From Brevinematales bacterium (lineage in GTDB: Bacteria > Spirochaetota > Brevinematia > Brevinematales > GWF1-51-8), in NCBI GenBank assembly GCA_020059465.1, contig JAGVBZ010000043.1, positions 1 to 64,000 on the forward strand: a DNA stretch of 64,000 nucleotides. The letters are read 5' to 3'. How positions within the stretch are numbered: position 1 is the stretch's first letter; each line of letters starts with the position of its first letter. Shown one piece after another: positions 20,300 through 55,352 of this stretch. The position numbers and the translations under genes were made by a program. The notes beneath the pieces were generated by a model. The model was not told where the DNA came from and did not search any database. It saw only the letters and a list, made by a program, of their open reading frames with translations.

Positions 20300-22195
20300 C
20301 TATTTCAGATTGATGATCACCTCGCCGGGCTTCCCGCTCACCTGCGGGATCTGGCGGAAATTCAACAGGAGCATGGACTGCTCCGGTACGGCTTTCCCCA
20401 TATATTCCTGCATCTCCGCGAGAGTTATGGTCTTATTTTTGTCCGCATCGGCGTCTCCGCCCAGCCCCCTTAGCAGGAAGTAGGTGAAAAGCCCCTGTCC
20501 CATATCCTTATACCATGCCGCGTAGGAGTCGCCGGTGGTCGCGAGGAAAACCGTGCCGATCTCTGCCGCCGCAAGCTCGTTCTGCACCTTCGCCATAATC
20601 GGGGAAACGTTATCGATCAGCATGCCCGCCGCCGAGTCGCCTGAGAAACAGGAGTCGAGTATCAGCACGACCTTCTTCACACCCGCGTCCTTCAGCTTGG
20701 TCAGGTTACGGTAGAGCGTGTCGAGCGCGTATCCGGTGGCCTCGGGGTTGAACTTCTTGAGCGACACCGGGGCGAGGTAGCCCTTCTTATCGCTCAGTCC
20801 GGGGATGCCGTGCCCGCTGTAATAAATATAGACCGCATCGGCATTTTTGCTTTTCGCGAGCTTGTACACCTGACTGGTCTCGAAACTGTCGGCGGCGCCG
20901 AAAATATCGATAAATTCCGTCAGGTCGGCGTTCTCACGGTACAGGATATTTTTTTCGTCGATACCGAATGTTTTTATCAGGTACTGTTTCATGAGCTTTG
21001 CGTCGTTCAGCGCAAACTGAACGGGGGGAATTCCCGGCTGGTAGTCCTTATTACCGATCACGACGGCGACCGGGGAGGAGTAGGGGGATTTTCCCTCAGG
21101 GATATTCATCGCGGTCTCGGATAGGGGGCTGTCCATCCCGGATATCGACGGGTAGACTGCGCCGCTGATCCCGGGGCCGGCATCGAGACAGTAGAAATTG
21201 TAATCGAGGCCGCCGAACATGACCTTATCGTTATAGAAACATGCCGATGAAAACAGCATGTTGTCGGTTCCGTATTGCCAAATCACCTTGCCGGTTTCCA
21301 TATTCATGCAGTAGAAGAATCTGTCCTGGCTTCCGAAATAAACGCTGCCGTTCGCGATTACGGGGCTGGAGAGCACGGGCTTATAGGTGCGGAATTTCCA
21401 TTTCAATTCGCCGGTATCCGAGTTGAGCGCGTAGAGGTTACTGTCGCCGCTCCCGATGAACACCTTGCCCGCGTATGCCACCGGACTGGAAATTATCTCA
21501 TCCCCGGTCTTGAACTTCCACAGCATCGTACCCTTACTCGCGTCGATGCAATAAAGGTGAAAATCCTTACTGCCGACATAGACCTTTCCGCCGGAAACGA
21601 AGGGGCTGGAGTACACTTCCCCGCCGGTTTGGTATTTCCATACCTCCGAGCCGTCGGAGGCGTTCAGGCAATAGACATAACCGTCCATCCCGCCGAAATA
21701 GATACGGTTGTTCCACAGGCACGGGCTGGAAAAAATCTGGCCGGCGGTCTTATAGCTCCATATTTCATCGCCGTACTCCGTATCGAAGCAATACATCCGA
21801 TTATCCCAGCTTCCCACATAGACCTTATTATCATAAACATAAGGGCTTGAGATGATAGTATCCTTTACCCCGGTGGTCCATACCATCGCCCCTGTCTTGG
21901 CGTCCAGACAGTATAGGTTCCGGTCGGTGCCCCCGAAAAACACCTTACCCTGCCATACCGTGGGGCTGGAGTAGATTTTATCGCCGGCGGAAAATTTCCA
22001 ACGGAGTTTCCCGTTCTTTGAACTGACGCAGTAGAGGTTATGGTCGATTCCGCCGAAATATACAAAGTCCTCCCATACGCACGGGCTGGAGGAGACCCAA
22101 TTCATCGTCTTGAACCGCCAGACAAAATCGCCGGGCTTTGCCGACAGGAGACCGGCCGAAAATGCTAGAATAATTGTAATAATAATACGGTTCAT
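20300..22195 (-). CDS. secreted beta-propeller / caspase-fold peptidase fusion
   Basis: The 631-residue protein has a signal peptide (1-18), then eight PQQ-type repeats of exactly 40 residues: the SSP triplet recurs at residues 36, 76, 116, 156, 196, 236 and 276, with a variant SSA at 316. Each repeat ends with G.D.NLYC and a W.F/W.Y pattern, so they should form an eight-bladed propeller. The C-terminal part (375-631) is a caspase-like C14 domain with His462 in YIYYSGHG and Cys516 in LDSCFSGD. Propeller plus caspase suggests a sensor-triggered protease in the periplasm or outside. The start is ATG with TAGGAGGG. The gene lies in the block bounded by inverted repeats. Confidence 0.9.
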   Translation of the reverse strand: MNRIIITIILAFSAGLLSAKPGDFVWRFKTMNWVSSSPCVWEDFVYFGGIDHNLYCVSSKNGKLRWKFSAGDKIYSSPTVWQGKVFFGGTDRNLYCLDAKTGAMVWTTGVKDTIISSPYVYDNKVYVGSWDNRMYCFDTEYGDEIWSYKTAGQIFSSPCLWNNRIYFGGMDGYVYCLNASDGSEVWKYQTGGEVYSSPFVSGGKVYVGSKDFHLYCIDASKGTMLWKFKTGDEIISSPVAYAGKVFIGSGDSNLYALNSDTGELKWKFRTYKPVLSSPVIANGSVYFGSQDRFFYCMNMETGKVIWQYGTDNMLFSSACFYNDKVMFGGLDYNFYCLDAGPGISGAVYPSISGMDSPLSETAMNIPEGKSPYSSPVAVVIGNKDYQPGIPPVQFALNDAKLMKQYLIKTFGIDEKNILYRENADLTEFIDIFGAADSFETSQVYKLAKSKNADAVYIYYSGHGIPGLSDKKGYLAPVSLKKFNPEATGYALDTLYRNLTKLKDAGVKKVVLILDSCFSGDSAAGMLIDNVSPIMAKVQNELAAAEIGTVFLATTGDSYAAWYKDMGQGLFTYFLLRGLGGDADADKNKTITLAEMQEYMGKAVPEQSMLLLNFRQIPQVSGKPGEVIINLK

Positions 22196-38201: not shown

Positions 38202-38278
38202 TGTGTAATTATTACACGCCTGTGTATTAGTTATACAAAGTGATATTTAGCATACTGTGAAATATATTTATACAGTAT
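38202..38278 (+). promoter_or_regulatory. tandem palindromes upstream of the sigma-54 promoter
   Basis: Two sites of the form TGTGTA-N5-TAYACR lie at 38202-38218 and 38221-38237, centres 19 bp apart; the first contains the perfect palindrome GTGTAATTATTACAC. A third, ATACTGT-N13-ACAGTAT, is at 38252-38278. They end about 25-100 bp before the -24 element, as expected for enhancer-binding-protein sites. Confidence 0.6.
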
Positions 38279-38300
38279 ATACAGTTATAAACAGAAAATA

Positions 38301-38317
38301 TTGGCACGATAATTGCG
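38301..38317 (+). promoter_or_regulatory. sigma-54 (-24/-12) promoter for the giant surface protein operon
   Basis: TTGGCACG-ATAA-TTGC at 38301-38316 fits the sigma-54 consensus TTGGCACG-N4-TTGCW at every defined base but the last (G at 38317). GG and GC are 10 bp apart as required. No competing sigma-70 box of equal quality is near. Start of transcription is expected near 38327. Confidence 0.85.
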
Positions 38318-38326
38318 AGAATATAT

Positions 38327-38507
38327 TGATATATCAGGGGATGAGGCCGGGAGGGATTCCGGCCAGAGTAAATCTTGAGAAGTCCTTCGGATAACAAATT
38401 CCTTTCTTCCGGAGGTTGAACATCCCCCCGAAAGACGAGTTAAATGTGTTTTGAAGGACTTTTCAAGAAAATTAAAAATTTTCAGTCGTATTATAAGAGG
38501 AGGAGAT
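38327..38507 (+). promoter_or_regulatory. structured 5' leader of the giant surface protein operon
   Basis: About 180 nt with three nested elements: a GGCCGG/CCGGCC hairpin (38345-38364); a 15-bp long-range stem, CTTGAGAAGTCCTTC (38374-38388) with GAAGGACTTTTCAAG (38453-38467); and, inside it, TCTTCCGGAGG with CCCCCCGAAAGA. The ribosome site GAGGAGGAG (38497-38505) is outside the stem. I recognise no known riboswitch. The rest of the gap 38114-38200 shows no feature. Confidence 0.55.
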
Positions 38508-41500
38508 ATGAAGGTGATCAAGGGTCTGGGGTTTTTGGCGTTATTTCTCTCCATTTTTTATAACGGGGGTTATGCATATTTCTACGAAGACTTGTTTTCG
38601 GCTTCTCCCGGTAAGTGGCAATTAAAGTATGAATACAGCCGTTCGCTCGGATACGGACTGGTGGGCGACGGAGAAACTGTAGCGATAAATGCAGGCGCAA
38701 GCGGCGAGCTTCGCTTTACAGGCAACGGCTACACCGCCGGATTTGCCAATGAACTTTACGGGTTCCAGGCGAAGCTGACGAACCTCGGGCCGAATTCCGG
38801 TTATTCCGCTTCGGTACATAAACCTTTCGGTTTTGAAATTACCCGTACTTATGCATGGCTCGATCCTCATAACGATACATCCAACCCTGAATCGGGGCGT
38901 ATGAAATGCGATATGATTCTTTGGCTGGTAAAAAACCAGATGACTGACGCTATACATTTTGACGATTTCCTGACCATCGTCGAATTCAGCCGGCCCCAGC
39001 TCGGTACGAACGACGGTATGCCCTCCGAACCCGATGTTCAGCCGCGTTCCTTCTGGATTCCCAACGAGTCGGGTACGAAGGAAATCAAGTTCGATTTCGT
39101 GAACGCAGTCGATCCTACAGGAAAAAAAGGCGGAAATAATCTCCTCGACGTCATGGAATGGGGATATGACGATTATTGGGGAAAGAATACATATAACGCT
39201 GGCGGTACGGCGAATGCAAATAATCTGAACAACGCCGATATCCGTTTCAGGTTGACGACGGACGGGGAATACGCATATTTTTATGTCAACCCCGCTCCCG
39301 CGGGAAACCCCACTCAAGTTTGGAACAAGTACAACGGGGTTGCCGCGACCTATACGAACACCTACTATCTGGTTGCTAAGCTTCCTATTTCGTTTACCAA
39401 TCTGATTATTCCGATGATCGGGGTCGGGAATAACCGCCCGGATTCCGAACAGGAAGCCGCTTATTTCGACGACTTCCGTATCCGTTCTATCTGCTCATCC
39501 ATTACCTCTTATGTATCTCCCGCCACAGCGGCGGCCGGAGCATCGATACCGCTGAAACTGATCATTACCCCTAATTTCGCAGCCACCGGATACGCCTCGA
39601 CCGACTACGCGGGTATCCATGAGCTTTATGTTCAGCTTCCTGCCGGCTCCGCTTACACTAACTGGGCGAATTATACCAATAAACTTCAGATATTCTGGAC
39701 TACAAACGGCGGAGTCTATCAGACGTTTACTAAACAGCTTGGCAATGTGAACCCGTCGGTGCTGAACGGCGCGAGTATCTCGATAGTCAGCAATAACCTG
39801 CTCCGTATCCGTTTCGATGCTGTCGGAAGCTCTTCCGCCGACTGCCGTGTTTTCCATCCCACTATCCTTAACGGGCTGAGTATCAACACGTTGAATCCCG
39901 AGATCATGCTCGTGATCTCGAACTTTACTACCCCCACGCAGGCGGATTCCGTCGGTAAAACCTTCGTAGTATACGCGAATAACGAGAAATATGCGGATAC
40001 GACGTGGGCTAAAAACGCTACGACCGGCAAAATGAAATCGTACCAGAAGAGCGGAGACGGACTGTTATTCAAGACTGTGAACTCGCCTCTCGGCGTCGCT
40101 TATCTCCGCCCCGGGCAGATTTACGAGGGATCGGCGGGGACATTTTATTACGATGTCAAAGCGCTGAATACCAATAATAATGCGAATATAACTTCAATAC
40201 AGATAAAGGTTCCCGCGGGATTTACAGTCAACCCGGCAAGCATCGACAGTGAACGTCTCGCGGGCAGTACCGGATTGTCGCTCATTTCCAACGGTACTAT
40301 CATTAAGGTCGATTATACTTCCGAGGGAATAAAACTGGTCGCCGGAACCGGTATCGACACAATCAAATTCAATACCACCACTACCACCAATGTACCCGCG
40401 AATACGAATATGGTTGTGGTGAAATTCCCGTCTTATTCCTACTCGACCGTGCAGGGCGTTAGCTTCGTGACGAATAATACCAATCTGGCATACCCGTCAC
40501 AGCAGCTTATAGTGCGGAAGAAACCGCCTGACGCGCAGGCGTATATGCAGAACGGTGTCCCGATTACCGGGCTTCCAAAGAATTATATTAAGAATACCGC
40601 TATCAGTAATGCATATAAATATGTAGTAGCGAATAAGGGATTGACGGGTAATAACCTCCTCAAGCTCCTTATCCGTATCGATACGAAAATTACCAATATA
40701 AAATCGGTAGCGAGCGGGCTTCCGGCAACCATAAGCTCTTTCTCATCGAATACTTATATCTATATCAAAATCGACTATAAGGCACAGAATACCAATATTC
40801 TGAACGGCGGCGGCGACGTTATCACGTTCTATGGATACGACACCGTCCGCTCACTGACCAATTTAATACTGATGGCGAATTTCCCCGCATGGGCGGATAA
40901 CGGAAACGGCGAAGGGTGGGTGAGTGTCGCTGAGCATTCCGATACCTACAAGACTTACTACTATACGCCTCCCGCGATCGCTATCGCAAAGATCAACGCG
41001 CCGGGCGGCGAACTGACAAACGATTTAGTCTCGCACCATATTTTCAATGACAGAGTCACTGCGACAAATATTCAGATTACTATTCAGAACAGCGGTGAAC
41101 TTGGAAACAATATCTATGACGCGCTGATCTATTGTCCCCCGCAGTTAACGAATATATTCGGGATTGCGGCATTCCATCCTATTACGAAGGTTTCCAACGC
41201 GATATGTACAAAGTATCTTACAAACGGCGGGACGAACGTAATTCGTGTACAGTATACGAATATCCTTAAAGCCGCGACGAACCAGATAGGCGATTCCAGT
41301 ATTGTCAGCTTTATGGCATGGGATAATGTAAACAGTTCAAATAATTATTCCTTCCTGATACAGGTCAGGAATACGACCAATTACGCGAAGGCAAAGCCTT
41401 ACGCTGAAGATTCCCGGCAGCTGACACTGAACTTTATATATTCCAAACCGGCAGCGGATTCCTATATTACCGTACCGTTAGGGTATATCAACTCGGCGTC

Positions 41501-44500
41501 GGACGGTACTAATGTTGTTTATACCATCCGGAATCTGGGACGGGTCAGCAATATTATTCAAACAGTCTATATTCATATCCCAACGAATTATATACAAAAT
41601 GTTACGGGTATAGTTAGTTCGCTCGGCGGAGTTCCTGTTTTCTCTGGGGATAAAATCACCCTTACATATTCCGGGAACATGTTTGCGGGCGGGTTGAGCG
41701 ATAATGTATCATTCTTCCTGAACGATAAGGTGGACGCGGGTACTGCGCATATCGATATAAAAGCGAGTGTCCAAAATCAGAGGATGTGGAGCAATACGGT
41801 CAAAGTTACGCCTACCAAAACGCAGACAGTCGATATTATTCCGCCTCCGACATGGTATTCCTATACGTTAGCCCCGTTTGTCATCTATCGGGCCGATTTG
41901 GGTCAGACGAAAACCAATGTGCTGTGCATCAGCGTCAGCAACAGGGGTGTGGGAAGCAACCTTCTCGACCGCGTATGGTTCCAGATCCCGGCGCAGTTCA
42001 TAGGTAAGGTTCTGCTCATCAGTAACGCTCAGTTGAACGGAACGAGTGTTTCCAAACCTGCTGCGATAAAAATTTCCAATGATTATATCCGTGTCGATTA
42101 TGATGTAGATGGGCAGTATGTTAACGCCGGTACGGTCGATAAGACCTATATTTGGCTTTTAGTCAATACTACCAACGTATTCAATACAACGTGGAATATG
42201 CTCGCGGCGAATAACTCTACGAATGCGGACGGAAGCCATAATATGACCAACGGCGGATTGACTCTTTCTCTTGGCGGGCTTACAGGAAGTAAAATCCTTT
42301 CGCAAGCCGATACTCCCCATGGGTATATCACACCTACTGAGATTCTCACTCCGGCTATAAAAAATAACTTCTCATATTATCTCAAGAACGGCGATTACCT
42401 CACCGGTAGAAATATATTCGGTGTGAAAATTGCAATGGTTACCCCGTTTACATTAATCTCGAACTGTTCCGGCGGCGATTCCTACAGTACTTATTACTCG
42501 AACAACTCCGCCGTAGTAGAAGTCGGTTACTCGACGGGTATCGCTCCCAATAATGCGGTCCTGATTAACTTTACCGCGTACGATAACTGGGAAAGCGGTC
42601 CGAACAATGTCGCTACTGAGATATATGTCAACTATAAGGACGGTACGGGATGGCATCCCACTAAAACGAAAACCGGCGCGTATTCCAAGAGTATCACGTT
42701 TAATAACCCGATAGCCAGCGGGTTGGCGTATATCGAACCGAATACGGTTTCGCAGGATTTCCCGACGAATTCCTTCAAGATTCACATAAAAAATAGCGGC
42801 GAAGTGGATAACAACATCCTGATGATGGCGGTAGCGATTCCTCCCGCTATTACGAATCTCACGTCCATCTCCTCTCTTGTCAAAGGCGGGACATGCTACT
42901 ACAAACCCGGTTTATTACTGGTATACTATACCAACGGCGTACAACGCATGAACAGCGCGGAGACCGATGTCGTGCAGTTTATCGGCGCCGATAATATCAC
43001 CAATACCGAAGTGGCGCAGGCATGGACTGTATATGTCGATAACACAACGAATACAAATATTCTGTTAATGCAGACAGCGGTTGCGTTGGGCGGAAAAAGT
43101 CTCGCGCTGAATATTGTTAAGCCCGATTATAATCCGTTTATTTATATCACCGCGAGCAATTCGATTTCGCAGTTCGACCTGAACACGGTTTATTCGACAT
43201 TTACTACAAATTTCTTCTATTTTGAAATATGGAACCAGAGCGGGACGGGAAACCGTATCACTTTTGCGAAAATAAAAATCCCGGGTATCGGCACTGTGCT
43301 GAATACAAACTGGGTATCAGTTACCAGCATGAATAAGACTATTCCGGCTGCAGTAGTATCGAACGGGTATATCTGGCTGAATTATACGTCCGATAAGATA
43401 TTCCCCGGACAGTACGATAAGGTGCTGATAAAAATTCGGGATACGGTTCTTCATTCCGAAACATCGATCAACTGGAGCGCGGATGTGGCGTTCGACTCCA
43501 CGTTTAACCAGTATAAGCCCGCATCCCAGATGGCCGGAAAGTCGCTCACAATAAATTACAAGATGCCTCAGCCTTCCGTGTCGGTAACTAAGACCCCCGG
43601 AGAAATTTACCTGAACCGCCCGAATCTCGCAATCTCCTATAACATCAGTAATACAGGGAACGGCTCCAACGATTTAAATGAGGTGAAGATATTCCTTCCG
43701 AGTATTTTCCGCACGGGCTTCAGCGCATCCAAGGTATCGAATTCTGTTGCGACTAATATCACTTACAGCGCGGGAACCGGGTTGATTACTCTGTTCTATA
43801 ATAATCTTTCGCCGAAATCGGTGGACAAGATTTTCCTGTATGTTACGAATACTGCGTCTACTTATCAGTGGGTTACCATTGAATCGTCGGCAAAGAACTA
43901 TATCAATACGAATTTTACCTCCGGGAATAAAGACCTGCTGGTATCGTCAATTCCTTCGTTCAGCGTTTCGCCTAACGATCTGGATACGACCATCGATCAG
44001 CAGGATTTCGCGTTTACGGTCAATAACAGCGTGACAGCCGCGTCGCTGCATATCCAGAAACTTGTGCTTCAATTCCCTACGCAGTTTACCAATTTCTCGA
44101 TTGTAGGCAGCGGGATTGCGATGTCCAATTATGGAACGATTACCAGCCTGACATTGGACTACCAGGCTATGGGAGAGTCGATTAATGTCAGCGACCAGGA
44201 TACGATTATTATCCGTCTGTATGACAAATATGAAATCGGGAATCTGACCAATCTGTTTAAAGTCTGGGCCGACAACGGTCAGGGATATTACCCGTTGAGC
44301 GTCAGTTCCGGGAAATCGGCAAACGTATTCTTTATAATGCCGGAGGTTTTCGCCAGAACATTATCAACTCCGGATTATATCGAATTAGGAAAGATTTCCA
44401 ACAGCATGACGATTACTTTGGATAATCTGGGAAGCGGGTCCGATAGGATCAGTTTTGCAAGAATTAAGCTGCCTAGCGGAATGGGAAGTATTGCCAATAT

Positions 44501-46259
44501 CACCAGTTCCTACGGCGGAATTGTAAATTACAGTCTCACGAGTAATATAATATATCTCAGGTATACCAATCTTCTGGATATCGGGCAGAGCGACAATATC
44601 AGTTTCGATTTTGTCAATCTGATAAATCAGGTGACCAACCTGAGAATAGAGATGGAAGCCGCGAACCTGACGAATAAACCGGTGTACTATAACTGCCCCG
44701 GTAATCTCGGCCCATACCTCATGCTCAGCGTCGACTATCCCCCTGTTGCAGCGGAAAGCTATTTCTACGGCGATAATAATCTCTATCTGATCGAAACAAA
44801 TGCGACGCTGATATTCCGTATCATGAACCGTTCGTCAGGATCGATACTTACTCAATCGATCATCGTGTTCGGCACAAACATGATGAATGTGTTTAAATCT
44901 ATAAAGATCGATACGGCAAACAGCATTGCGCAGAGCATTCTGTTCGACACGAATAATAACCGGATCATCATGACCTATAGCACTAATCCGGGCGCATCGA
45001 TGGAATTTACCGAATACGACGATGTGCGACTCACGTTTGATTACACGCTGAATAGCGTATTCATAATTCCGGTACATACTACCAATTCAATCAGGCTGGA
45101 AAGCGGGTCGAATACGAACATCATCGGTATTCAGACCGGCGGGAATGTCAGTTATATTGGGATAACCAATTCGGCATGGGGCGCCGTTAAGGGAAATGTA
45201 TATCCCTTCACGAAAGCGGTCAATGTTAAACTCTATTATTCCAATACATCGGTACTCGCTACCAATGACAGCGGTATCAATCTGGGCGCTATCAGCACGA
45301 TTGGGACAGGCCAATATATACTCAGCCGTATCCCGGCAGGGTCATATAATATGGAATTTTCACTTCCCGGCGTGTTCAAGAAAGAAACATATTCGATAAA
45401 CATAGCCGCGAACAAAATCACGAATATTTCGATTATTACGATGCGGAATGCAACTCTCAAGGCGGGAGAGGAAGCTCCCCTTCAGGAAGTGGTTTGTTAT
45501 ATGGCTACCAATACGCGCATCGTATTCCCGAAGGGCTCTGTGGGCAGCGAATTCTCGGTGGATATCAAGGTCATACTGTTGACCCCGCCGCAGAAGGCGA
45601 AGATTGACGAGAGCACATTGATAAAGCCGCCCCTCGGCAAAGACGGTATGTTCGGATACTTGTTCCAATTCTACGATAATAACGATAAACCGATCAAAGG
45701 ATCGCTGCTGCAGCTTGACGCGATCATGTATCTGGCGTTCGATCCTGTCACCAACCTCGGATGGGGCTGGCAGGTCGCCGATCTTGCGATATTCTATTGG
45801 GACGATAACGGCGATACCGACTATTCCGACTCCAAGTGGGTGAGGATAGGCGGTACGGTCGACAGTGTGAACGGTGTAGTCACCGCGAGAGTGGCGTATC
45901 TGCACGGGTTCTATGCGGTTATGGCAAAACTGGTCAACGAACAGGGTATAATACAGAACGTTGTGCTGAGGCCGAAGATTTTTACCCCATTCGGTCCGAA
46001 CGATTACTATACCACTGTGAGGATTTCGTTTGAATTCGATCAGGGGTACGACAGCTACGAGGTGAAAATATACGATCTCTTCGGGATGCAGGTACGAAGC
46101 TTCAAGCGTACTGCCGAGAGCGGGGTAAAGTTTACCCAAGGCGAGGTCGCGTGGGACGGCAAAGATAACGAGGGTTATCCGGTTAAGAGCGGCGTCTATA
46201 TCTATCAGGTGATAGTAGGCGGGCAGACTTATTCCGGCACCTTAGTGATCGTACGGTAG
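38508..46259 (+). CDS. giant secreted Ig-repeat surface protein 1
   Basis: A 2583-residue secreted protein. It has a signal peptide (1 to about 23), an N-terminal domain of about 310 residues ending ..AAYFDDFRIRS (a form seen in lectin-like or galactose-binding-like folds), then about 13 repeats of 150-190 residues. Each repeat has the plan Y(I/V).P...N.(F/L).Y.I.N.G.G.N.(I/L), IP, Y(T/S)N, D.I.F, N. These are Ig-like and rich in Asn and Thr. After them come a carboxypeptidase-regulatory-like domain (about 45180-45450), a domain resembling ZU5 (45450-45940) and a FlgD-Ig-type C-terminal domain (45960-46256) with WDGKDNEGYPVKSGVYIY. ATG 38508 follows GAGGAGGAG; upstream in-frame starts lie in the leader stem. 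Confidence 0.85.
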   Translation: MKVIKGLGFLALFLSIFYNGGYAYFYEDLFSASPGKWQLKYEYSRSLGYGLVGDGETVAINAGASGELRFTGNGYTAGFANELYGFQAKLTNLGPNSGYSASVHKPFGFEITRTYAWLDPHNDTSNPESGRMKCDMILWLVKNQMTDAIHFDDFLTIVEFSRPQLGTNDGMPSEPDVQPRSFWIPNESGTKEIKFDFVNAVDPTGKKGGNNLLDVMEWGYDDYWGKNTYNAGGTANANNLNNADIRFRLTTDGEYAYFYVNPAPAGNPTQVWNKYNGVAATYTNTYYLVAKLPISFTNLIIPMIGVGNNRPDSEQEAAYFDDFRIRSICSSITSYVSPATAAAGASIPLKLIITPNFAATGYASTDYAGIHELYVQLPAGSAYTNWANYTNKLQIFWTTNGGVYQTFTKQLGNVNPSVLNGASISIVSNNLLRIRFDAVGSSSADCRVFHPTILNGLSINTLNPEIMLVISNFTTPTQADSVGKTFVVYANNEKYADTTWAKNATTGKMKSYQKSGDGLLFKTVNSPLGVAYLRPGQIYEGSAGTFYYDVKALNTNNNANITSIQIKVPAGFTVNPASIDSERLAGSTGLSLISNGTIIKVDYTSEGIKLVAGTGIDTIKFNTTTTTNVPANTNMVVVKFPSYSYSTVQGVSFVTNNTNLAYPSQQLIVRKKPPDAQAYMQNGVPITGLPKNYIKNTAISNAYKYVVANKGLTGNNLLKLLIRIDTKITNIKSVASGLPATISSFSSNTYIYIKIDYKAQNTNILNGGGDVITFYGYDTVRSLTNLILMANFPAWADNGNGEGWVSVAEHSDTYKTYYYTPPAIAIAKINAPGGELTNDLVSHHIFNDRVTATNIQITIQNSGELGNNIYDALIYCPPQLTNIFGIAAFHPITKVSNAICTKYLTNGGTNVIRVQYTNILKAATNQIGDSSIVSFMAWDNVNSSNNYSFLIQVRNTTNYAKAKPYAEDSRQLTLNFIYSKPAADSYITVPLGYINSASDGTNVVYTIRNLGRVSNIIQTVYIHIPTNYIQNVTGIVSSLGGVPVFSGDKITLTYSGNMFAGGLSDNVSFFLNDKVDAGTAHIDIKASVQNQRMWSNTVKVTPTKTQTVDIIPPPTWYSYTLAPFVIYRADLGQTKTNVLCISVSNRGVGSNLLDRVWFQIPAQFIGKVLLISNAQLNGTSVSKPAAIKISNDYIRVDYDVDGQYVNAGTVDKTYIWLLVNTTNVFNTTWNMLAANNSTNADGSHNMTNGGLTLSLGGLTGSKILSQADTPHGYITPTEILTPAIKNNFSYYLKNGDYLTGRNIFGVKIAMVTPFTLISNCSGGDSYSTYYSNNSAVVEVGYSTGIAPNNAVLINFTAYDNWESGPNNVATEIYVNYKDGTGWHPTKTKTGAYSKSITFNNPIASGLAYIEPNTVSQDFPTNSFKIHIKNSGEVDNNILMMAVAIPPAITNLTSISSLVKGGTCYYKPGLLLVYYTNGVQRMNSAETDVVQFIGADNITNTEVAQAWTVYVDNTTNTNILLMQTAVALGGKSLALNIVKPDYNPFIYITASNSISQFDLNTVYSTFTTNFFYFEIWNQSGTGNRITFAKIKIPGIGTVLNTNWVSVTSMNKTIPAAVVSNGYIWLNYTSDKIFPGQYDKVLIKIRDTVLHSETSINWSADVAFDSTFNQYKPASQMAGKSLTINYKMPQPSVSVTKTPGEIYLNRPNLAISYNISNTGNGSNDLNEVKIFLPSIFRTGFSASKVSNSVATNITYSAGTGLITLFYNNLSPKSVDKIFLYVTNTASTYQWVTIESSAKNYINTNFTSGNKDLLVSSIPSFSVSPNDLDTTIDQQDFAFTVNNSVTAASLHIQKLVLQFPTQFTNFSIVGSGIAMSNYGTITSLTLDYQAMGESINVSDQDTIIIRLYDKYEIGNLTNLFKVWADNGQGYYPLSVSSGKSANVFFIMPEVFARTLSTPDYIELGKISNSMTITLDNLGSGSDRISFARIKLPSGMGSIANITSSYGGIVNYSLTSNIIYLRYTNLLDIGQSDNISFDFVNLINQVTNLRIEMEAANLTNKPVYYNCPGNLGPYLMLSVDYPPVAAESYFYGDNNLYLIETNATLIFRIMNRSSGSILTQSIIVFGTNMMNVFKSIKIDTANSIAQSILFDTNNNRIIMTYSTNPGASMEFTEYDDVRLTFDYTLNSVFIIPVHTTNSIRLESGSNTNIIGIQTGGNVSYIGITNSAWGAVKGNVYPFTKAVNVKLYYSNTSVLATNDSGINLGAISTIGTGQYILSRIPAGSYNMEFSLPGVFKKETYSINIAANKITNISIITMRNATLKAGEEAPLQEVVCYMATNTRIVFPKGSVGSEFSVDIKVILLTPPQKAKIDESTLIKPPLGKDGMFGYLFQFYDNNDKPIKGSLLQLDAIMYLAFDPVTNLGWGWQVADLAIFYWDDNGDTDYSDSKWVRIGGTVDSVNGVVTARVAYLHGFYAVMAKLVNEQGIIQNVVLRPKIFTPFGPNDYYTTVRISFEFDQGYDSYEVKIYDLFGMQVRSFKRTAESGVKFTQGEVAWDGKDNEGYPVKSGVYIYQVIVGGQTYSGTLVIVR

Positions 46260-46268
46260 GAGGGCTAT

Positions 46269-49200
46269 ATGAAATACATAAAAAAGACGCACAAACTCGG
46301 GAGAAACCCCATGAGCAGAATATATAGCTTAGTCCTGACTGCATCGTTAATTATTCTGACCGCTGTTTCAGGCTTCGGGAAGTCTATGTACTATTATGAG
46401 CCTTTTCCGGATTCGCCTACTGCGGTTGCTCACGGATGGGTATTCAACTTCCGCATGAGCCGCGATATGATCGTGTATGATTTGTTTCAGGATTGGGGCG
46501 GAGACGGTCAGTCCGCATTTGACAGGAACCATCCGGGTACTGTCAATGTAAACGCAGGCGTACTGAATATCTATGGAAAGCCGAACAACTCCGCTTTGAC
46601 ATGGAACAACTGGTATCTCGGCGACGGCGCGAAATGGGATCCTAAACTCTGTCCCGATATGGGAAGCCAGAAAGTGACCGCTTCGGCCGAACAGCCGTTC
46701 GGATATGTGATTATCCGCTATACGAACAGTATTGACCCGCGCGGAGATTCCGGGGAGTCCGGAGGATATGCGAACAGCGCCGCTCAAAAAGGATTGGTTA
46801 CCGCGTGGATGGCGCAGGAGAACGGCGCGGTCGATCCGTATGACACATGGGAAAACTTTGTATATTTTTACGATAAGGCAAACTGGAATGTAGCGAACAA
46901 TACATGGGGATACTATAAGGATTACGAGCATGATGTCGCGATTGCTACATTAACTGCTGATATTGATAATGTTACACCAGGAAATATTACTGGAAATTTC
47001 AGGAAGAATTTCGACGATAATAACCAGAATTATCAGAACTGCCTTGTAGCGCAATTTGACGGCGACGGGTATGTCAATCCTGTCACAACAGAGTTAGGTA
47101 TAAAAATGGTTCATGACGGCAGTTCTATCAAGATGTATGCCAATCCCGATCCGTTGGGTGATACGGCAAATATGTCGAACACGTGGATTCTTGTCGGGAG
47201 CGCAAATGTCGGATGGTATGATGACATTGTTAGTTTCTTCGGAATAGAATCCCCCTTCTTCCGTGAAGGAGAAGTTTGTACGGTTTATGATAATTTCTAT
47301 ATTCGTACGGTCGCGAGTAATCTCACGGCGTCGGTAACCCCGAAGAAAGCGGTCACGGGCGCGAGCGTTACGTTTACCGCAAGCCTGACTCCGCAGATAG
47401 GTTCGATGAACGACAGCGGAATAGGCGAAGTGTATATCAAGAAACCCGCCGGATACGGCGCATGGACGCCCGCAAACGTGACGGTTGTGCATCCCCAAGG
47501 CGGAGCGATGACCCGTCAGACCGCTGCCGCGTATAAGATCGGGGGACTTCCCGCGAATAACTTCTATGTCGAGGACAGAGGCGGATTGCTGTATATCCGT
47601 TTCGGTATGCTCGGTGGTGATGCGGCGAATAACGTGGTTACCAACGGAACGATCAATATTTCGTTCACTATCACTACTCCCGCAACCGGAGACCGTTTAG
47701 GCCAAAACTTCGAGTTATATGCCGATTGCAGCAAGCATGCGAGAACCGGGCAGGACGTCATTTTCGGCGGTACTATGAAATACGCGACTACCGGAATGAA
47801 AAAGGCATATGCGAGCGGTTTTGAGCAGCTTTTAGTCCGGACATATACTCAGCCAAAATTGAACTACGCTAAGGTGGAATACTCCCCGTCGCCGATTATT
47901 GTCGGTACCGAGGAATCGGCGTTTACGGTCAAACTGTCGTCCGAATTGGTTACGGGCGCTCCGGATATATCGCATATCCGAATCCAGATACCGTCCGGGT
48001 TTACTGTCAGTAATAACAGTCCCAGTAAAGTAAATATTCAGTCCATGGTGCTGAAGACGCCGTCCGGCGACCTGAGTTCGAATAACGCGTTCGTATCGGG
48101 CGGATATGTCTATGTGTATTATACAAACAGTCTGATCGGCGGTTTCCCCGGAGAAGACGGTTTCGACCGTATCACGTTCAACGTATACGGTACCCCGTCC
48201 ATCGGAGCGAAAAGCTCGTCTAATTTTACATGGCAGGTACAGGTGAACAGCAGTCTGTTTGTATCCGGTACGACATGGCAGAATGCGACCAATACGCCGT
48301 TGATGCAGGTTACGGTCGCTAAATCGAATGCGGTTGCGGCCGGATCGATAACACCGGACAAAGTGGCGATTTTCGCTCTTGTCGCAAGCAACGCCAACAG
48401 CTATACTTATACCATTAAAAATCAGGGTAAGGGCGATAGTTCTATCCTGAAAGCGAAAATTTCGGTTCCAGTTAACTTCACGAGTATCTCGGTTACCACA
48501 CCCAGCGCGAAAGGCGCGGCGGTTTCCTATACGAACAGCGAACGCATGATTTATATCAACTACGGGACGCCGTTATTGACCAACACCTCGGATACGATTC
48601 AGTTTACGATGACTCATACCAATACGAATGTGAACTCCCCGGCTGTGCTTGCGCCGTTTGTTCTCTATGCCGATAACGGCAACTTGTCGGGCTATGTGCT
48701 GCAAAGCCCCGAATTCGGGAAAACGTGGAGCGTGACTATCAAACCTCCGATACCTTCGGCGGCTAATTATATCACTCCGCCATGGGTTTACACTACTTCG
48801 ATTACCAATACGATCACCAACACCATTTTCAATACTTCGCCTCGCGGGGTAAAGATAAAATATGCTACGATGATGTTTGCGGCCGATAAATTCCCGACTA
48901 TTATCAATGTCACTACTACCTATATGAAGAATCCCGCCAACATTATCCAGACGAATTTTGACGGCACTAACTTTATTTACTTGAAGTTCTTTAACGATAC
49001 AAACGGGGGATTATTCTCCAAGTACGTGAACAACGATAAGGAGAACGTTATCGTAAAGTTTATCGATAGCGTCACTTACGCGACCTTTGCGACGAACAAG
49101 ATGCCCACAAATATCACCATACCGACTTATGTGTTCAAGTCGGACTATATAACCAATAACTCCGATTTTTATGATCTTGCGGAATTTGACCCTAACTACG

Positions 49201-52200
49201 GCGGAACGAACAGATTCTATTTCAAACTGCCTCTTGTCTCCGCAAAGTTTTCTATCTCTCCCCAGACTATTGCGTCCTCGTCGGTAACAAACGATATTAC
49301 GTATGTTCTGACGAATACCGGTCTGCCGGGGAATAGAATCCATTACTTCTATATTCCAATACCCGCAACGATCTCTACCAATGTCTTGCTGATCAATCCA
49401 AGCGTCGGCGTCGCTATACCCGAACCGGCGCAGAACCGTATAAAAATCGTCTTCAGTCCGGCGCTGGACGGCGGGCAGAAATGTGTGGTTACCTTTAAGA
49501 TGGTGGACATTGTCGGACAGGAAGACAAGCAGGCATATTTCTATCCGTCGGTACGGAACGATTATGAGTATATAACGCTCGGCAACCCGGATATCATTTC
49601 CGGGAAGAGCGGAAAGATCGATTTCCAGATACCGAAACCGAGCGGCGGCGGCGGCGGTTCTCCCAATGTAGTATTTGTGCAGAAATCCGAACCTGTCGGA
49701 AGTATTATTACTCAGCAGTTTACGCTGATTGTTACGAATACAGGCGTCGGGCAGGACCTTTTCCAGAAAGTGATGGTCAAGATGCCGCAACCGTTGAAGG
49801 GATTTGTCAAGTCGGTGTACAGCACGAGGCTTAATCTCTCCTCCACTAATTCGGCTTATTTCACGATTACATCCACAAACTTCCAGGTAAACTATATACC
49901 TACTGCAAAAGAAATTACAGTGGGAAAATCGGATACCCTGATTGTCACCGCTATGATATCCAATCTGACTATGCTGCCGACAAACGGTAAATGGGAATTT
50001 TTCGCGGACAACGGGTTCTACGATATCGGAAATCCCGGAAAGACGTTCTATGAACTGACTAATCTTGTGATCGGGAGCGCTTGGGTTTACGGTACGGAAC
50101 GTGTAAAAGTGACATTAACCGGGAATGACTTGACTACTATCAGAACAAACACGTTTACCTATGAAATCAAGAACGGTACGAACGGGAGTCTGTCGGTCAA
50201 TAAGGTGAGGATAAAAATCCCGAGTATCTATAGCGTCAATCCGAGTGATGTTTCTGTTACTCTGACTTCGGCCGATGTCACAGTAAGCGGCGGATATATC
50301 TGGCTGACCTATTCTTCGGGTATGCTCGACCAGAATAAGAAATCTCAGCTTACGATTAAGGCGGTTAAACCTTTATTGGCTGAACCGATGACCGTTAATT
50401 GGACAGCGGAGGTATATTATACCAATAATAATCAAGCTGTGCCGTGTCAGGTTAAGGGAAGCAGTATCCAATATATCAACGCGCCGAATGCGGACTTTTA
50501 TGCGCATGTCTCTCCTATTACTGTAGGAAAGGACTTGTCTTCGCTGAGTTACACTATAACCGTTACTAATATAGGTGCGTTGAGTAACAATATTTATAAA
50601 CTCAAAATTGTTCCGCCTACGACAAACGCGAATAACAAACTTGTTATTACAAATGTTACCGGAATATCGTCGACCTTAGCCAGTAAGAAATGGTACTCGA
50701 ACGACGGATGCATCTATATCGACTATGGAATTAGTAATAAGAATATCGGAGCGAAGGCGAAGGATGTTATCACGTTTACTGCATACGATAACCAGAATAA
50801 CGAAGGTTTTGTAGCAAACTGGAATGTGTACGCGATGAATTTAAAGACTACAAACGCGACATTCTTCTTAACAAAAGACCCGACCGTAATCGGTAAGAGT
50901 CTGCAGTTCAGAGTGATTGTTCCGGCTTATAATACTTCTTACTATGCATTTCCGAATCAGATTTCTACCGCGGAAGCCTCCAATACGATCAGCATCTATG
51001 TGAATAACACCGGTACGGGGACAAATAACGTCACCAGCGTCAAGTTATTCTTTGCGGCGCCCTTTACTAACTTCGGATTGCTTGCCACCAGTTTAAAGGG
51101 CAGCGCGCCTGTAGTCGGCTCAAATTTTGTTTTGGTAAACTATCCCACACCGATACCTCCGTCATCCAACGATGTGATTACCCTGAAGATTAGGGATAAT
51201 ATCACGTTCGGAAACGCATCTTCCTATATAACAGCAACTGTGAAGTACAACACCTCCGGCGGGCAGTATGTGCCGTCCTCGGTGAGTGTAGGAACGAACT
51301 TGATCAGTTTCCAGATGCCTGCGCCTGTGGTAGCGGCTGAAATGAGTCCGAACGACCTTTACAGCAGCCAGAATAGCGGTACCATTACATTCCGCTTTAT
51401 TAATAAGGCGACCGGGAGCAACAAGGCGCAGAAGGTCATTTTATACATACCCAGCCAGTTTACCAACGGGATGGGGCTGTCCAAGCTGACCGATGTAAAC
51501 GGAATGACGACAAATATTGCATATAGCGCCGGGAAATTCATCCTATCATATGCAAATTTCCCAGTAGGGTATACCAACGTACTGACGCTGAATGTCACGA
51601 ATTTCTCGACAAATCTGACCAGTTATATCTTCCAATCAGTCGCATCCAACGGCGTACTCGGGGCGTTTACTACGACAAACACGGATTCGAAATACCTCAA
51701 TATTGTAAAAGCTCCTTCGGCGGAATTAACCGCTGCCTCGATGATTGTATATTCGACGAGGCTGAATAACGTAGTATCGTTTACGATCGATAACAATTCC
51801 AGCGGAAACGAACCCGTGAAATTCGTGCGGATCGATATCCCGACAGTGTTTAACAATATCACATCGCCCTCCAGCGTCAAAGGTGTGATTGCGCAGCAGG
51901 CCGCATCGTATATCGTTATCGCTTATACGAATAGTGCAAACTTCCTAGCGAAGGGCCAGCAGGATACCGTATCTATGACTGTCTGGGACACAACGAATAT
52001 GGTGGAGATCAATCCGCTGACATATGCAGTGAAGGCCAATAACGGGTCCGGATACGGAGTCGTACGTGAAATGATAAATACTCTGAAGCAGAGTATGAAA
52101 ATCCCGTTGGCGGAAATCACGAATTATCAGATTTCCAGCTGGTTCCTGATCAATACAAGTCTGAAAATCGAAACGAATAATTTCATTTTCATACTGAGCA

Positions 52201-53984
52201 ATAAAAATGCCAACCAGAATCTGGTGTATTCAAACGTGATAATTCTGCCGAATGAGATTGGCTCGCATATTGTATCTTCGATCAACGCGACTCACCCCTC
52301 TGCGTCGGCAGTACAGTCCGGAACAAAAATCATTGTGACTTACGGCGGCGCGAACGGGTTCTTCCCCGGTGAGACGAATTTAATTTCGTTCCAATTCACG
52401 AATAATATATTTACCGCGAAGAACCTTCTGATGAAAATATATTCATACAACAAGAGTTCCTTCGGATCGGTGCAGAATAATGTCAACCTCAGCTTTAAAT
52501 CCCCGCAGGAACCTACCGAGGCATATGTATATAATAAGAAGATACTTTACAGCATCGACCATTTCAATGAAATAGTATACAAGGTAAAAAACGGTATGTA
52601 CGATATCGGGATACAGAAGATCAGGATTAATTTCAGTAATCAGTTGAAGATTACTAATATCTATTCCGATTATCATGGAACTTTCCTGCCGTTTACACAG
52701 ACGCCTTCGAATTTAACGATAAACTTCGCGGCTGTGGGACTGCTCCCGTCCAGACTGGACCCGTCGAAGGGTGAAACGACCCTCCGTATCTACGTGATCT
52801 ATACCAACAATTCGAGTTGGACGAATAATATGTCGGCGAAGGTACAGTACTCGGGTAACCTTGAGTGGGCGAGCACGCGCCCCGGTGCCGGGGAATGGGA
52901 TTATACTCCTGTTCTGCTGGCGGACTTCGGGCGAATTATCGGTTATGTTCTGCCCGGATCGGCAAACCCCACAGTGCGCCTGCTTATGCCCGGTACGACC
53001 AACACTCTCATGACGAATAAATTCGGGCAGACTATCACAGCCGCGGCGAACAGTTCGACAGGGTACTATGTGCTCGACTTTGTTCCGCCCGGGACATATA
53101 ATATCAGTTATAGCGGTGACCTCTATAAACCTTCGGTTCTTTCGAATATTACCGCTATAATCAATAAGATTACCAACGGGGTGAACTATAAGATGAAGAA
53201 GGATACTTTTAATCCTAATTCTACTATAGTGCAGCAGTCCCTGTGTCTGGACGATATGCAGAGCGTACTGATTGTCCCGCCCGGAATCATACGGAATTAT
53301 TTTGCCGTCGATATGTGGATTTCCAATATCGCCGCGCAGCAGAAGGAAAAGGTCGGAGGCGGGTATATTCAGACCCCCGCTGACAGGAATAATCTGCAGG
53401 TATTCTACCTCGATATCAGCGACCTGAAAGGCAATGACTTGATGCAGCAGGAAATATGGGGTAATCTTACTCTGAAGCTGTTCTATAATGAGACAAATAT
53501 CGCCGCGCAGGGATGGAGCGAAAACTCGCTGGCTATCTATTATTGGCGCGAAATGACCGGAGAATGGATGCGGATCGGCGGTAAGGTGAATGCGTTGGAG
53601 AACTCTATTTCCGCACAGGTAAGTTATATCCATCAGTATTACGCGATATTCGGCGAGACGGGTATCAAAGAAATAGCTCCGGGATTTGTCAATGTGACGG
53701 TGGATCCCAAAATATTTACTCCATTGAGCACGGATAAGAGTTTTAAAAACCTTAAACTTTCCGTCGGTTTCGCGAGCGAGGTCAGCAAATATGAAATTAA
53801 GATATACACGCTCTACGGCGAACTGGTACGAAGTTTTGTGTTTGAGGGCGGCGGATATACCCAAGCTGAAGTATTCTGGGATGGAAACGATAACGAGGGT
53901 TATCCGGTTAAGGGCGGTGTGTTTATCTATCGTGTAATCGCTGACGCTAATACGTACAGCGGAACGATTGTGATAGCGCGGTAA
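46269..53984 (+). CDS. giant secreted Ig-repeat surface protein 2
   Basis: A 2571-residue paralogue in plan of the protein before it, 9 nt downstream. A longer N-terminus precedes the signal (MSRIYSLVLTASLIILT...). The N-terminal domain (46386-47310) ends ..TVYDNFYIRT. About 13 Ig-like repeats follow, one boundary of which is a poly-Gly linker (about 49641-49662). Then come a carboxypeptidase-regulatory-like domain (about 52930-53200) and the same FlgD-Ig-like end (53690-53981; WDGNDNEGYPVKGGVFIY, YSGTIVIAR). Sequence identity with protein 1 is low in the repeats but high at the C-terminus, so the end is under constraint. Start ATG 46269 follows AGGAGGG. An adhesin or surface-fibre role is inferred. 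Confidence 0.85.
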   Translation: MKYIKKTHKLGRNPMSRIYSLVLTASLIILTAVSGFGKSMYYYEPFPDSPTAVAHGWVFNFRMSRDMIVYDLFQDWGGDGQSAFDRNHPGTVNVNAGVLNIYGKPNNSALTWNNWYLGDGAKWDPKLCPDMGSQKVTASAEQPFGYVIIRYTNSIDPRGDSGESGGYANSAAQKGLVTAWMAQENGAVDPYDTWENFVYFYDKANWNVANNTWGYYKDYEHDVAIATLTADIDNVTPGNITGNFRKNFDDNNQNYQNCLVAQFDGDGYVNPVTTELGIKMVHDGSSIKMYANPDPLGDTANMSNTWILVGSANVGWYDDIVSFFGIESPFFREGEVCTVYDNFYIRTVASNLTASVTPKKAVTGASVTFTASLTPQIGSMNDSGIGEVYIKKPAGYGAWTPANVTVVHPQGGAMTRQTAAAYKIGGLPANNFYVEDRGGLLYIRFGMLGGDAANNVVTNGTINISFTITTPATGDRLGQNFELYADCSKHARTGQDVIFGGTMKYATTGMKKAYASGFEQLLVRTYTQPKLNYAKVEYSPSPIIVGTEESAFTVKLSSELVTGAPDISHIRIQIPSGFTVSNNSPSKVNIQSMVLKTPSGDLSSNNAFVSGGYVYVYYTNSLIGGFPGEDGFDRITFNVYGTPSIGAKSSSNFTWQVQVNSSLFVSGTTWQNATNTPLMQVTVAKSNAVAAGSITPDKVAIFALVASNANSYTYTIKNQGKGDSSILKAKISVPVNFTSISVTTPSAKGAAVSYTNSERMIYINYGTPLLTNTSDTIQFTMTHTNTNVNSPAVLAPFVLYADNGNLSGYVLQSPEFGKTWSVTIKPPIPSAANYITPPWVYTTSITNTITNTIFNTSPRGVKIKYATMMFAADKFPTIINVTTTYMKNPANIIQTNFDGTNFIYLKFFNDTNGGLFSKYVNNDKENVIVKFIDSVTYATFATNKMPTNITIPTYVFKSDYITNNSDFYDLAEFDPNYGGTNRFYFKLPLVSAKFSISPQTIASSSVTNDITYVLTNTGLPGNRIHYFYIPIPATISTNVLLINPSVGVAIPEPAQNRIKIVFSPALDGGQKCVVTFKMVDIVGQEDKQAYFYPSVRNDYEYITLGNPDIISGKSGKIDFQIPKPSGGGGGSPNVVFVQKSEPVGSIITQQFTLIVTNTGVGQDLFQKVMVKMPQPLKGFVKSVYSTRLNLSSTNSAYFTITSTNFQVNYIPTAKEITVGKSDTLIVTAMISNLTMLPTNGKWEFFADNGFYDIGNPGKTFYELTNLVIGSAWVYGTERVKVTLTGNDLTTIRTNTFTYEIKNGTNGSLSVNKVRIKIPSIYSVNPSDVSVTLTSADVTVSGGYIWLTYSSGMLDQNKKSQLTIKAVKPLLAEPMTVNWTAEVYYTNNNQAVPCQVKGSSIQYINAPNADFYAHVSPITVGKDLSSLSYTITVTNIGALSNNIYKLKIVPPTTNANNKLVITNVTGISSTLASKKWYSNDGCIYIDYGISNKNIGAKAKDVITFTAYDNQNNEGFVANWNVYAMNLKTTNATFFLTKDPTVIGKSLQFRVIVPAYNTSYYAFPNQISTAEASNTISIYVNNTGTGTNNVTSVKLFFAAPFTNFGLLATSLKGSAPVVGSNFVLVNYPTPIPPSSNDVITLKIRDNITFGNASSYITATVKYNTSGGQYVPSSVSVGTNLISFQMPAPVVAAEMSPNDLYSSQNSGTITFRFINKATGSNKAQKVILYIPSQFTNGMGLSKLTDVNGMTTNIAYSAGKFILSYANFPVGYTNVLTLNVTNFSTNLTSYIFQSVASNGVLGAFTTTNTDSKYLNIVKAPSAELTAASMIVYSTRLNNVVSFTIDNNSSGNEPVKFVRIDIPTVFNNITSPSSVKGVIAQQAASYIVIAYTNSANFLAKGQQDTVSMTVWDTTNMVEINPLTYAVKANNGSGYGVVREMINTLKQSMKIPLAEITNYQISSWFLINTSLKIETNNFIFILSNKNANQNLVYSNVIILPNEIGSHIVSSINATHPSASAVQSGTKIIVTYGGANGFFPGETNLISFQFTNNIFTAKNLLMKIYSYNKSSFGSVQNNVNLSFKSPQEPTEAYVYNKKILYSIDHFNEIVYKVKNGMYDIGIQKIRINFSNQLKITNIYSDYHGTFLPFTQTPSNLTINFAAVGLLPSRLDPSKGETTLRIYVIYTNNSSWTNNMSAKVQYSGNLEWASTRPGAGEWDYTPVLLADFGRIIGYVLPGSANPTVRLLMPGTTNTLMTNKFGQTITAAANSSTGYYVLDFVPPGTYNISYSGDLYKPSVLSNITAIINKITNGVNYKMKKDTFNPNSTIVQQSLCLDDMQSVLIVPPGIIRNYFAVDMWISNIAAQQKEKVGGGYIQTPADRNNLQVFYLDISDLKGNDLMQQEIWGNLTLKLFYNETNIAAQGWSENSLAIYYWREMTGEWMRIGGKVNALENSISAQVSYIHQYYAIFGETGIKEIAPGFVNVTVDPKIFTPLSTDKSFKNLKLSVGFASEVSKYEIKIYTLYGELVRSFVFEGGGYTQAEVFWDGNDNEGYPVKGGVFIYRVIADANTYSGTIVIAR

Positions 53985-54012
53985 TGGGTTGCTTGGAAAA
54001 AGGAGGAATAAG

Positions 54013-55287
54013 ATGAAAAAGTTACTGACAGTGATAGCAATATTGATGGTGAGCGGTTATCTGCACGCGGCGTTTGAAGACCTCGGTTATACAGCGAGGA
54101 GTATGGCTTTGGGTAACGCTATGTTCGGGGAATTCGACGGTGTCAATTCAATGCATTATAACCCTGCGACTATAGCGCTTGCGAAAAGCTTTCAGGTATA
54201 CGGCGGATGGAATACCCCGTATGCTCAGTTTAACGACGGCTCGATGATAAATACTATAGATGCGAATATTGTGCTGCCGTTTTTTAACGGGTTCTCGTTA
54301 AGCTTCGATCCGTTTATTACAAAACGCGCCGCGTTGGGCTTCGCCTTCCATCGCATGTCGGTATCCGACGGTACTATGGAGATCTATCACGAGGGTGTAT
54401 ACAGCTTTATTTATGCGAAAGATCTGAACGATGTGATTTCACGCGGAGCAAAAATTTCCATCGGAATCCGTCTGAACGTATATGATATTGCGGTCGGCGC
54501 GCATCCTGATGTGGTACTGAATCCCGCGCTCGGCGGAGTGATGTCGAAGGTCTCGTTCGGCCTTGACGTCGGTCTGACCTACGACTTCTCGGAAACTATC
54601 CGTTTAGGCCTCAGCTTTAAAAACCTGATATCGCCGAACGTATCCATTTCGCCCGACGGTACCGATTCATTACCCTCGGAATTCCGTCTGGGAGCGAACT
54701 GGAATATCGGCAATATCCTTTTTATGAAAAACTCGATGGTCGGGATCGGTTTGGTAACCTACGGAAAGGATGCCAGTGATAACCGTCAGGCGAACTCCTC
54801 CTATAATATCGGGTTCGAATTCAAGCAGTTGTCCGCGCATGAAATATTTGAATCCAAGCCGTTCAAGGGTGAGATTCTTTCCATTCGGCTGGGAGCTATT
54901 TGGCAGCAGATGAAAGTGGGTGAAGATGTGATAACCGGGTCTGCCGGTATCGGTTTTATGTATGTATTCGGAAAGGCACACCAGATAAACATCGACTACG
55001 CTTTCAAATACGGGTTCAATGACGGATCGATGAAACACGTCGCCGGCCTGACATATCAATACCTTTTACCGAACAGCGCGTTTGTCTACGAGAAGGGAAT
55101 GGAAGCGGATCAGGAGCTTGATGAACTTTCTAAGGCGAGCACCAATATAAATAATCCAGACAGCGGAGTGAATAACGCAAAACCAGACGCGAATGTTCAG
55201 CCCGATGCGAAAAAACCCAATCCTGCTGACGATAAGAATAAGCCCGTTGTAGACGACAAGAATAAGAAAAAGGACAAAATTAAGTAA
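54013..55287 (+). CDS. outer-membrane barrel protein, PorV/UPF0164-like
   Basis: A 424-residue protein with signal peptide (1 to about 18, GYLHA-AF) and ARSMALGNAMFGEFDGVNSMHYNPATIA in part, the N-terminal signature of PorV/PorQ and UPF0164 barrels. The barrel is followed by a C-terminal tail of about 60 residues rich in Asn, Asp, Lys and Pro. PorV brings C-terminal-domain cargo to the type IX translocon in Bacteroidetes. It is co-transcribed with two cargo-like giants, 28 nt after the second. Whether it handles them is inference. ATG 54013 follows AGGAGGAATAAG. Confidence 0.8.
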   Translation: MKKLLTVIAILMVSGYLHAAFEDLGYTARSMALGNAMFGEFDGVNSMHYNPATIALAKSFQVYGGWNTPYAQFNDGSMINTIDANIVLPFFNGFSLSFDPFITKRAALGFAFHRMSVSDGTMEIYHEGVYSFIYAKDLNDVISRGAKISIGIRLNVYDIAVGAHPDVVLNPALGGVMSKVSFGLDVGLTYDFSETIRLGLSFKNLISPNVSISPDGTDSLPSEFRLGANWNIGNILFMKNSMVGIGLVTYGKDASDNRQANSSYNIGFEFKQLSAHEIFESKPFKGEILSIRLGAIWQQMKVGEDVITGSAGIGFMYVFGKAHQINIDYAFKYGFNDGSMKHVAGLTYQYLLPNSAFVYEKGMEADQELDELSKASTNINNPDSGVNNAKPDANVQPDAKKPNPADDKNKPVVDDKNKKKDKIK

Positions 55288-55316: not shown

Positions 55317-55352
55317 AGAGCTCCGTCTCGAGAGAGGCGGGGCTTGTTTTTT
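55317..55352 (+). terminator. intrinsic terminator after the barrel gene
   Basis: AGCTCCGTCTC (55319-55329), GAGA loop, GAGGCGGGGCT (55334-55344): 11 bp with two G-T pairs, then TGTTTTTT. It ends the sigma-54 operon. Confidence 0.85.

Follow-up and report, generated by a model that had tools for sequence, protein, structure and literature searches.

A giant-giant-barrel operon of a Brevinematales genome as a likely cargo-plus-carrier cassette of an SprA-dependent, T9SS-like export route in Spirochaetota

Introduction

SprB of F. johnsoniae is a giant adhesin with a C-terminal domain (CTD), and the PorV-like barrel SprF, which is encoded directly downstream of it, binds SprB and is needed for its secretion through the SprA pore; type B CTD-PorP pairs are the published analogue (PMC9143113, PMC12618676, PMC10202324). 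The mechanism by which SprA works with PorV has been described for the type IX secretion system (T9SS) (PMC10994853). The T9SS has been regarded as restricted to Bacteroidetes (PMC4793230) or as present in the FCB phyla and "absent from other bacterial phyla" (PMC11285876). CTD proteins have been called restricted to Bacteroidota (PMC10202324), and T9SS genes and CTD proteins confined to Bacteroidota or the FCB phyla (PMC12618676). CTDs have been reported in Poribacteria, where no Por secretion genes were found (PMC3909097). We found no report of SprA or a T9SS in Spirochaetota in the open-access papers searched.

Here we analyse an operon in a 64,000-nucleotide stretch of DNA (the window) from a Brevinematales metagenome-assembled genome (MAG; Spirochaetota, environmental lineage, 3.19 Mb, 96.6% complete). 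It resembles the SprB-SprF pair in having a giant repeat protein with a CTD, a PorV-like barrel gene directly downstream (46269-55287) and an SprA homologue in the same genome. It differs in its phylum, in having two giants per barrel, in its putative sigma-54 control, in a CTD that lies nearer to the FlgD_ig and type A tail models than to recognised type B ones, and in that GldM and GldN went undetected.

Results

Layout and predicted control of the operon

The operon comprises a sigma-54-type promoter, two ORFs for giant, predicted secreted proteins, an ORF for a 14-strand barrel and a terminator, with the following features:

38203-38217 (GTGTAATTATTACAC) and 38221-38237 (TGTGTATTAGTTATACA), no strand assigned: two adjoining palindromes read from the sequence, candidate upstream activator sites
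38302-38317, plus strand: sigma-54-type -24/-12 promoter element TGGCACGATAATTGCG, identified by top window match and conservation
38451-46259, plus strand: giant protein 1, predicted surface protein, 2602 aa as called or 2583 aa from ATG 38508
45972-46256, plus strand: CTD of giant 1, last 95 aa, with FlgD_ig, Por_Secre_tail and CHU_C matches and a match to the CTD profile
46269-53984, plus strand: giant protein 2, predicted surface protein of 2571 aa that is homologous to giant 1 throughout
53697-53981, plus strand: CTD of giant 2, last 95 aa, with an FlgD_ig match and a match to the CTD profile
53989-55287, plus strand: PorV-like outer-membrane barrel of 14 predicted strands, 432 aa as called or 424 aa from ATG 54013
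55318-55345, plus strand: intrinsic terminator-like hairpin with a 12-pair stem, the longest of the region, and a T run behind it

All three ORFs lie on the plus strand, separated by gaps of 9 nt and then 4-28 nt. The element TGGCACGATAATTGC at 38302-38317 is the top match to the sigma-54 consensus on both strands of the 64 kb window (11 positions vs 10 for the runners-up), and its GG-N10-GC core is positionally kept in three congeners, so that each of the genus's four genomes has it. The palindrome pair sits 65-99 bp upstream of this element, and the block (38203-38237) is kept at the equivalent position in genomes G001 and G002 and in part in G003, suggesting that the operon may be switched on by sigma-54 together with an enhancer-binding activator at the palindromes. 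The sigma-54 element was not found upstream in G005 (family f3). Both the sigma-54 promoter and the single closing terminator that a first-pass annotation of this DNA had marked are borne out by these data. Elsewhere in the window (20300-22195, minus strand), a protein combines PQQ/beta-propeller repeats with a caspase-like (C14) domain.

Two homologous giants with T9SS-tail-like C-termini

Both giants carry N-terminal signal sequences, in keeping with the earlier description of two secreted proteins of more than 2500 residues. The likelier start of giant 1 is ATG 38508 behind AGGAGG, as judged from the ribosome-binding site and the signal sequence; the signal peptide is followed by repeats of about 140 aa, by a CarboxypepD_reg-like domain and further beta domains, and by the CTD. 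The giants are homologous over their full length (24% identity, E=2e-158) and are probably surface-exposed. With a period of about 140 aa, giant 1 has 12 strong repeats and one weak one, as the first-pass count of about 13 in each protein had it, and giant 2 has 11 strong repeats plus degenerate copies. The label "Ig repeat" given to them earlier is not supported, the repeats themselves having no Pfam Ig match.

In a tree, giants 1 and 2 form separate orthologue clades across families f1, f2 and f3, which indicates that the pair predates these families. The giant pair of family f20 was considered as orthologous to the Brevinematales pair and rejected: the two f20 giants group with each other, so that each pair seems to have arisen on its own or to have been homogenised.

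The CTDs lie at the extreme C-terminus and have a conserved ending. That of giant 1 scored 25.5 bits against FlgD_ig (cut-off 27), 20.1 against Por_Secre_tail/TIGR04183 (cut-off 23) and 18 against CHU_C (cut-off 27), and for that of giant 2 only FlgD_ig was matched (17.3 bits, cut-off 27). By these matches, all of them under the curated cut-offs, the CTD resembles the FlgD_ig and T9SS-tail domains. The two CTDs had been described as almost identical, and proved to be homologous, with 53% identity over the last 95 aa and 31% across the C-terminal 378 aa. Foldseek matches of the giant C-terminal model to PorU and PorZ were set aside: their TM-scores are about 0.2, and many further proteins of Ig type are listed beside them. 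Two further proteins of the same genome (L059:5312-9544 and L058:8127-10805) differ from the CTD cargo in carrying FlgD_ig-like domains at several internal positions and in ending with an OmpA-like part.

A barrel of the FadL/PorV fold

The barrel more likely starts at ATG 54013, given the ribosome-binding site and signal sequence there, and it has an N-terminal signal peptide and a charged C-terminal tail. It matched the PorV family NF033709 (PorV_fam; E=4e-9, 36.5 bits, curated cut-off 90) and the PorP/SprF family TIGR03519 (PorP_fam; E=1e-5, 25.1 bits, cut-off 90.55). The PorV half of the PorV/UPF0164 signature proposed earlier thus holds weakly, and the UPF0164 half was rejected, because UPF0164 (PF03687) does not appear among the Pfam matches at E<=0.1. 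A UPF0164 search of the genome found none, but its controls gave no match either. The AlphaFold model has 14 strands at a mean pLDDT of 72.6. Foldseek with this model gave its best E-values for FadL and TodX and also matched PorV of 6h3i and 8gl6; among these matches the TM-score for PorV (6h3i_F, TMt 0.63) exceeds that for FadL (TMt up to 0.55). The modelled fold is consistent with the FadL/PorV family.

Two other barrels of the genome exceed the PorV_fam cut-off, at 105 and 99.6 bits. Two more pairs in which a CTD-type gene is followed by a PorV-family barrel passing the curated cut-off were seen there, at L113:5175-10260 (contig C31) and L061:7690-10083 (contig C11). For another CTD gene (L060, contig C29) a partner barrel was considered and dropped, the adjoining ORF matching no PorV-type family.

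A distant SprA homologue, with sortase and motor parts undetected

On contig C4 (L112:6940-12909), with no linkage to the operon, the genome encodes a protein of 1989 aa that matches the SprA/Sov model TIGR04189 (hmmscan E=2.9e-24, 84.5 bits, equivalog cut-off 200 bits). A profile built from 11 Spirochaetota homologues retrieved the solved F. johnsoniae SprA (6h3i) at E=5e-32 and nothing else. On this sequence evidence, the Spirochaetota protein is a distant homologue of SprA. Its nearest records are from Brevinematales, "Spirochaetes bacterium GWF1_51_8" and "GWF1_49_6". At E<=1e-8, SprA homologues were present in 77 of the 297 Spirochaetota genomes sampled; the named Spirochaetota records are MAGs, some of them titled Leptospiraceae or Turneriella.

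In a tree of 46 SprA sequences, the Spirochaetota rows make up one side, and Elusimicrobiota, Poribacteria, Coatesbacteria and Bacteroidota stand on the opposite one, where TIGR04189 backs the four checked. Two other labels on the Spirochaetota side, Caldithrix and Hydrogenedentota, belong to MAG contigs that are nested within Spirochaetota and are perhaps mis-binned. SprA contigs L158 (Caldithrix title) and L131 (Omnitrophota title) resemble Spirochaetota sequence and are probably mis-binned. SprA homologues of about 1700-1850 aa were also seen in records L160-L195, mostly from Elusimicrobiota with a few other phyla, and SprA homologues are held by the Poribacteria records L198, L201, L202 and L204.

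Other T9SS parts were not detected. The C25 peptidase of PorU-type sortases had no match in the genome and weak matches only in two congeners; that the search works is seen from one true match (1.3e-48) in a genome from a different family, though a divergent sortase could have escaped it. GldM was not found in 60 genomes (Bacteroidota control 6e-113) and GldN was not found in 14 Spirochaetota genomes (Bacteroidota control 2e-57); since the Bacteroidota model finds SprA only at a distance, a divergent motor or ring protein could have been missed by these searches. With three defining T9SS parts looked for and not found, we do not class the operon's system as a T9SS member, although it likely works like one. 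The first-pass annotation had suggested a separate or reduced system: "separate" is not supported in a genome that has an SprA homologue, and "reduced" may hold, with C25, GldM and GldN undetected.

Co-occurrence of CTDs, SprA and barrels in relatives

A profile of the operon's CTD (E<=1e-8) was positive in 29 of the 297 Spirochaetota genomes, and 27 of these 29 have SprA, against a frequency of 77 in 297 for the whole sample (Fisher test without correction for kinship, p ~8e-16). SprA occurs without a close CTD match in 50 of the 77 SprA-positive genomes. In family f4 of the same order (four genomes, two of them 95% complete), SprA, the CTD and the operon-type barrel are all missing; weak PorV-family matches are retained in three of the four.

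At about 32 of some 54 non-redundant barrel loci, a CTD gene lies directly upstream of the barrel on the same strand, a descriptive count made by hand, since each genome contributes its best loci and these are partly related; a CTD gene downstream was seen once. Across its recurrences the pairing involves cargo bodies as small as under 400 aa and as large as over 2500 aa. Barrels and CTD proteins clearly do co-occur in relatives, and the combination of CTD cargo with a PorV-like barrel that had been noticed in this spirochaete is a recurrent one. Barrels of the same superfamily also stand without a CTD neighbour in many genomes.

Gene order varies among families. In f1 and f3 the giant-giant-barrel cassette is flanked by ispG and glmM; f5 has a giant and then the barrel, with a second CTD end upstream in G015; the order in f20 is barrel, giant, giant; and f2 has two giant pairs, both away from the barrel. 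A large cargo and carrier expansion was seen in G029, G041 and G051, with 54 to 61 CTD-profile and 30 to 32 PorV-family matches per genome.

Discussion

The anatomy of the operon matches that of SprB-SprF, with two giants per barrel, and on this ground we propose that export depends on SprA and employs a dedicated carrier. Because the genome holds an SprA homologue, an SprA-dependent, T9SS-like route is a simpler reading than a barrel-only exporter. Taking sequence, model and analogy together, we consider it likely that the operon is a cargo-plus-carrier cassette of such a route in Spirochaetota. The giants would most likely pass the outer membrane by way of SprA and be collected or anchored by their own barrel. 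The co-occurrence of CTD and SprA, their joint absence with the barrel from f4, the recurrent placing of the barrel gene behind a CTD gene and the barrel fold speak for this reading. Against it count the sub-cut-off scores of CTD and barrel, the undetected C25 peptidase, GldM and GldN, the lack of linkage between the SprA gene and the operon, the barrel of f2 that stands apart from the giants, the 50 of 77 SprA-positive genomes without a close CTD match, and the occurrence of FlgD_ig-like domains in proteins with no need of such export, such as the OmpA-like ones of this genome.

Other described systems resemble the operon in part. It shares with the type A CTD/PorV/PorU branch a weak likeness to TIGR04183 (20.1 bits, cut-off 23) and NF033709 (36.5 bits, cut-off 90) and the presence of an SprA homologue; unlike that branch, in which one PorV serves all cargo, it encodes its barrel together with the cargo, and no C25 sortase was found in the genome. 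As in the Poribacteria, where TIGR04183 proteins were described, CTD proteins occur here outside Bacteroidota. No Por structural genes were found in that case (PMC3909097), whereas an SprA homologue accompanies the CTDs here; Poribacteria records too have one. FadL and TodX channels share the 14-strand fold of the barrel, but the operon's barrel type recurrently partners CTD cargo genes.

This last likeness bears on a reading in which the barrel is an ordinary small-molecule transporter of the FadL/TodX kind whose gene shares a transcript with those of unrelated surface proteins. We regard that as quite improbable: it would account for the top Foldseek E-values going to FadL and TodX and for the many superfamily barrels that have no CTD neighbour, but PorV gives the higher TM-score, and the pairing with CTD genes persists across the whole range of cargo sizes. 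Somewhat less improbable, yet still unlikely, is that the barrel alone exports or holds the cargo and that the SprA homologue has other substrates or another purpose. The tight pairing of CTD gene and barrel, the distance of the SprA gene from the operon and the failure to find either a motor or a sortase speak for such a barrel; against it stand the strong co-occurrence of SprA with the CTD and their joint absence from f4, the fact that 14-strand FadL-type barrels are not known to pass folded giant proteins, and the role of the T9SS PorV/PorP barrels, which are carriers and not pores (PMC10994853).

The giants might instead be periplasmic or inner-surface structural proteins that are not exported, with the FlgD_ig-like domain as a mere terminal cap. 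FlgD_ig is indeed a widespread Ig-like module that occurs, among others, in flagellar hook-assembly proteins. The position of the domain at the extreme C-terminus, its conserved ending and the way in which its presence follows that of SprA argue against a cap, and we hold this reading to be very improbable.

Under the preferred reading of SprA-dependent export with a dedicated carrier, sigma-54 and an activator at the palindromes would turn the operon on and the giants would reach the periplasm by Sec. Recognition of their CTDs would follow at the SprA homologue, whose gene lies outside the operon, and the PorV/PorP-like barrel made from the operon itself would collect the CTD, draw the giant out and hold it at the surface, by analogy with SprB-SprF and the type B CTD-PorP pairs. 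The giant pair may then build a coat, a fibre or an adhesin layer. More tentatively, and as somewhat less likely than not, Spirochaetota may have an old, phylum-wide SprA export machine that lacks a PorU sortase and the known Gld/Por motor, is powered otherwise and is supplied by cargo operons with a dedicated carrier barrel.

An SprA translocon present across Spirochaetota, with CTD cargo and carrier barrels to match, would raise the question of how SprA export is powered and its cargo anchored where neither a Gld/Por motor nor a sortase is found. It would also extend the range of T9SS genes and CTD proteins and offer surface-protein candidates in a phylum about whose surface export little is known.
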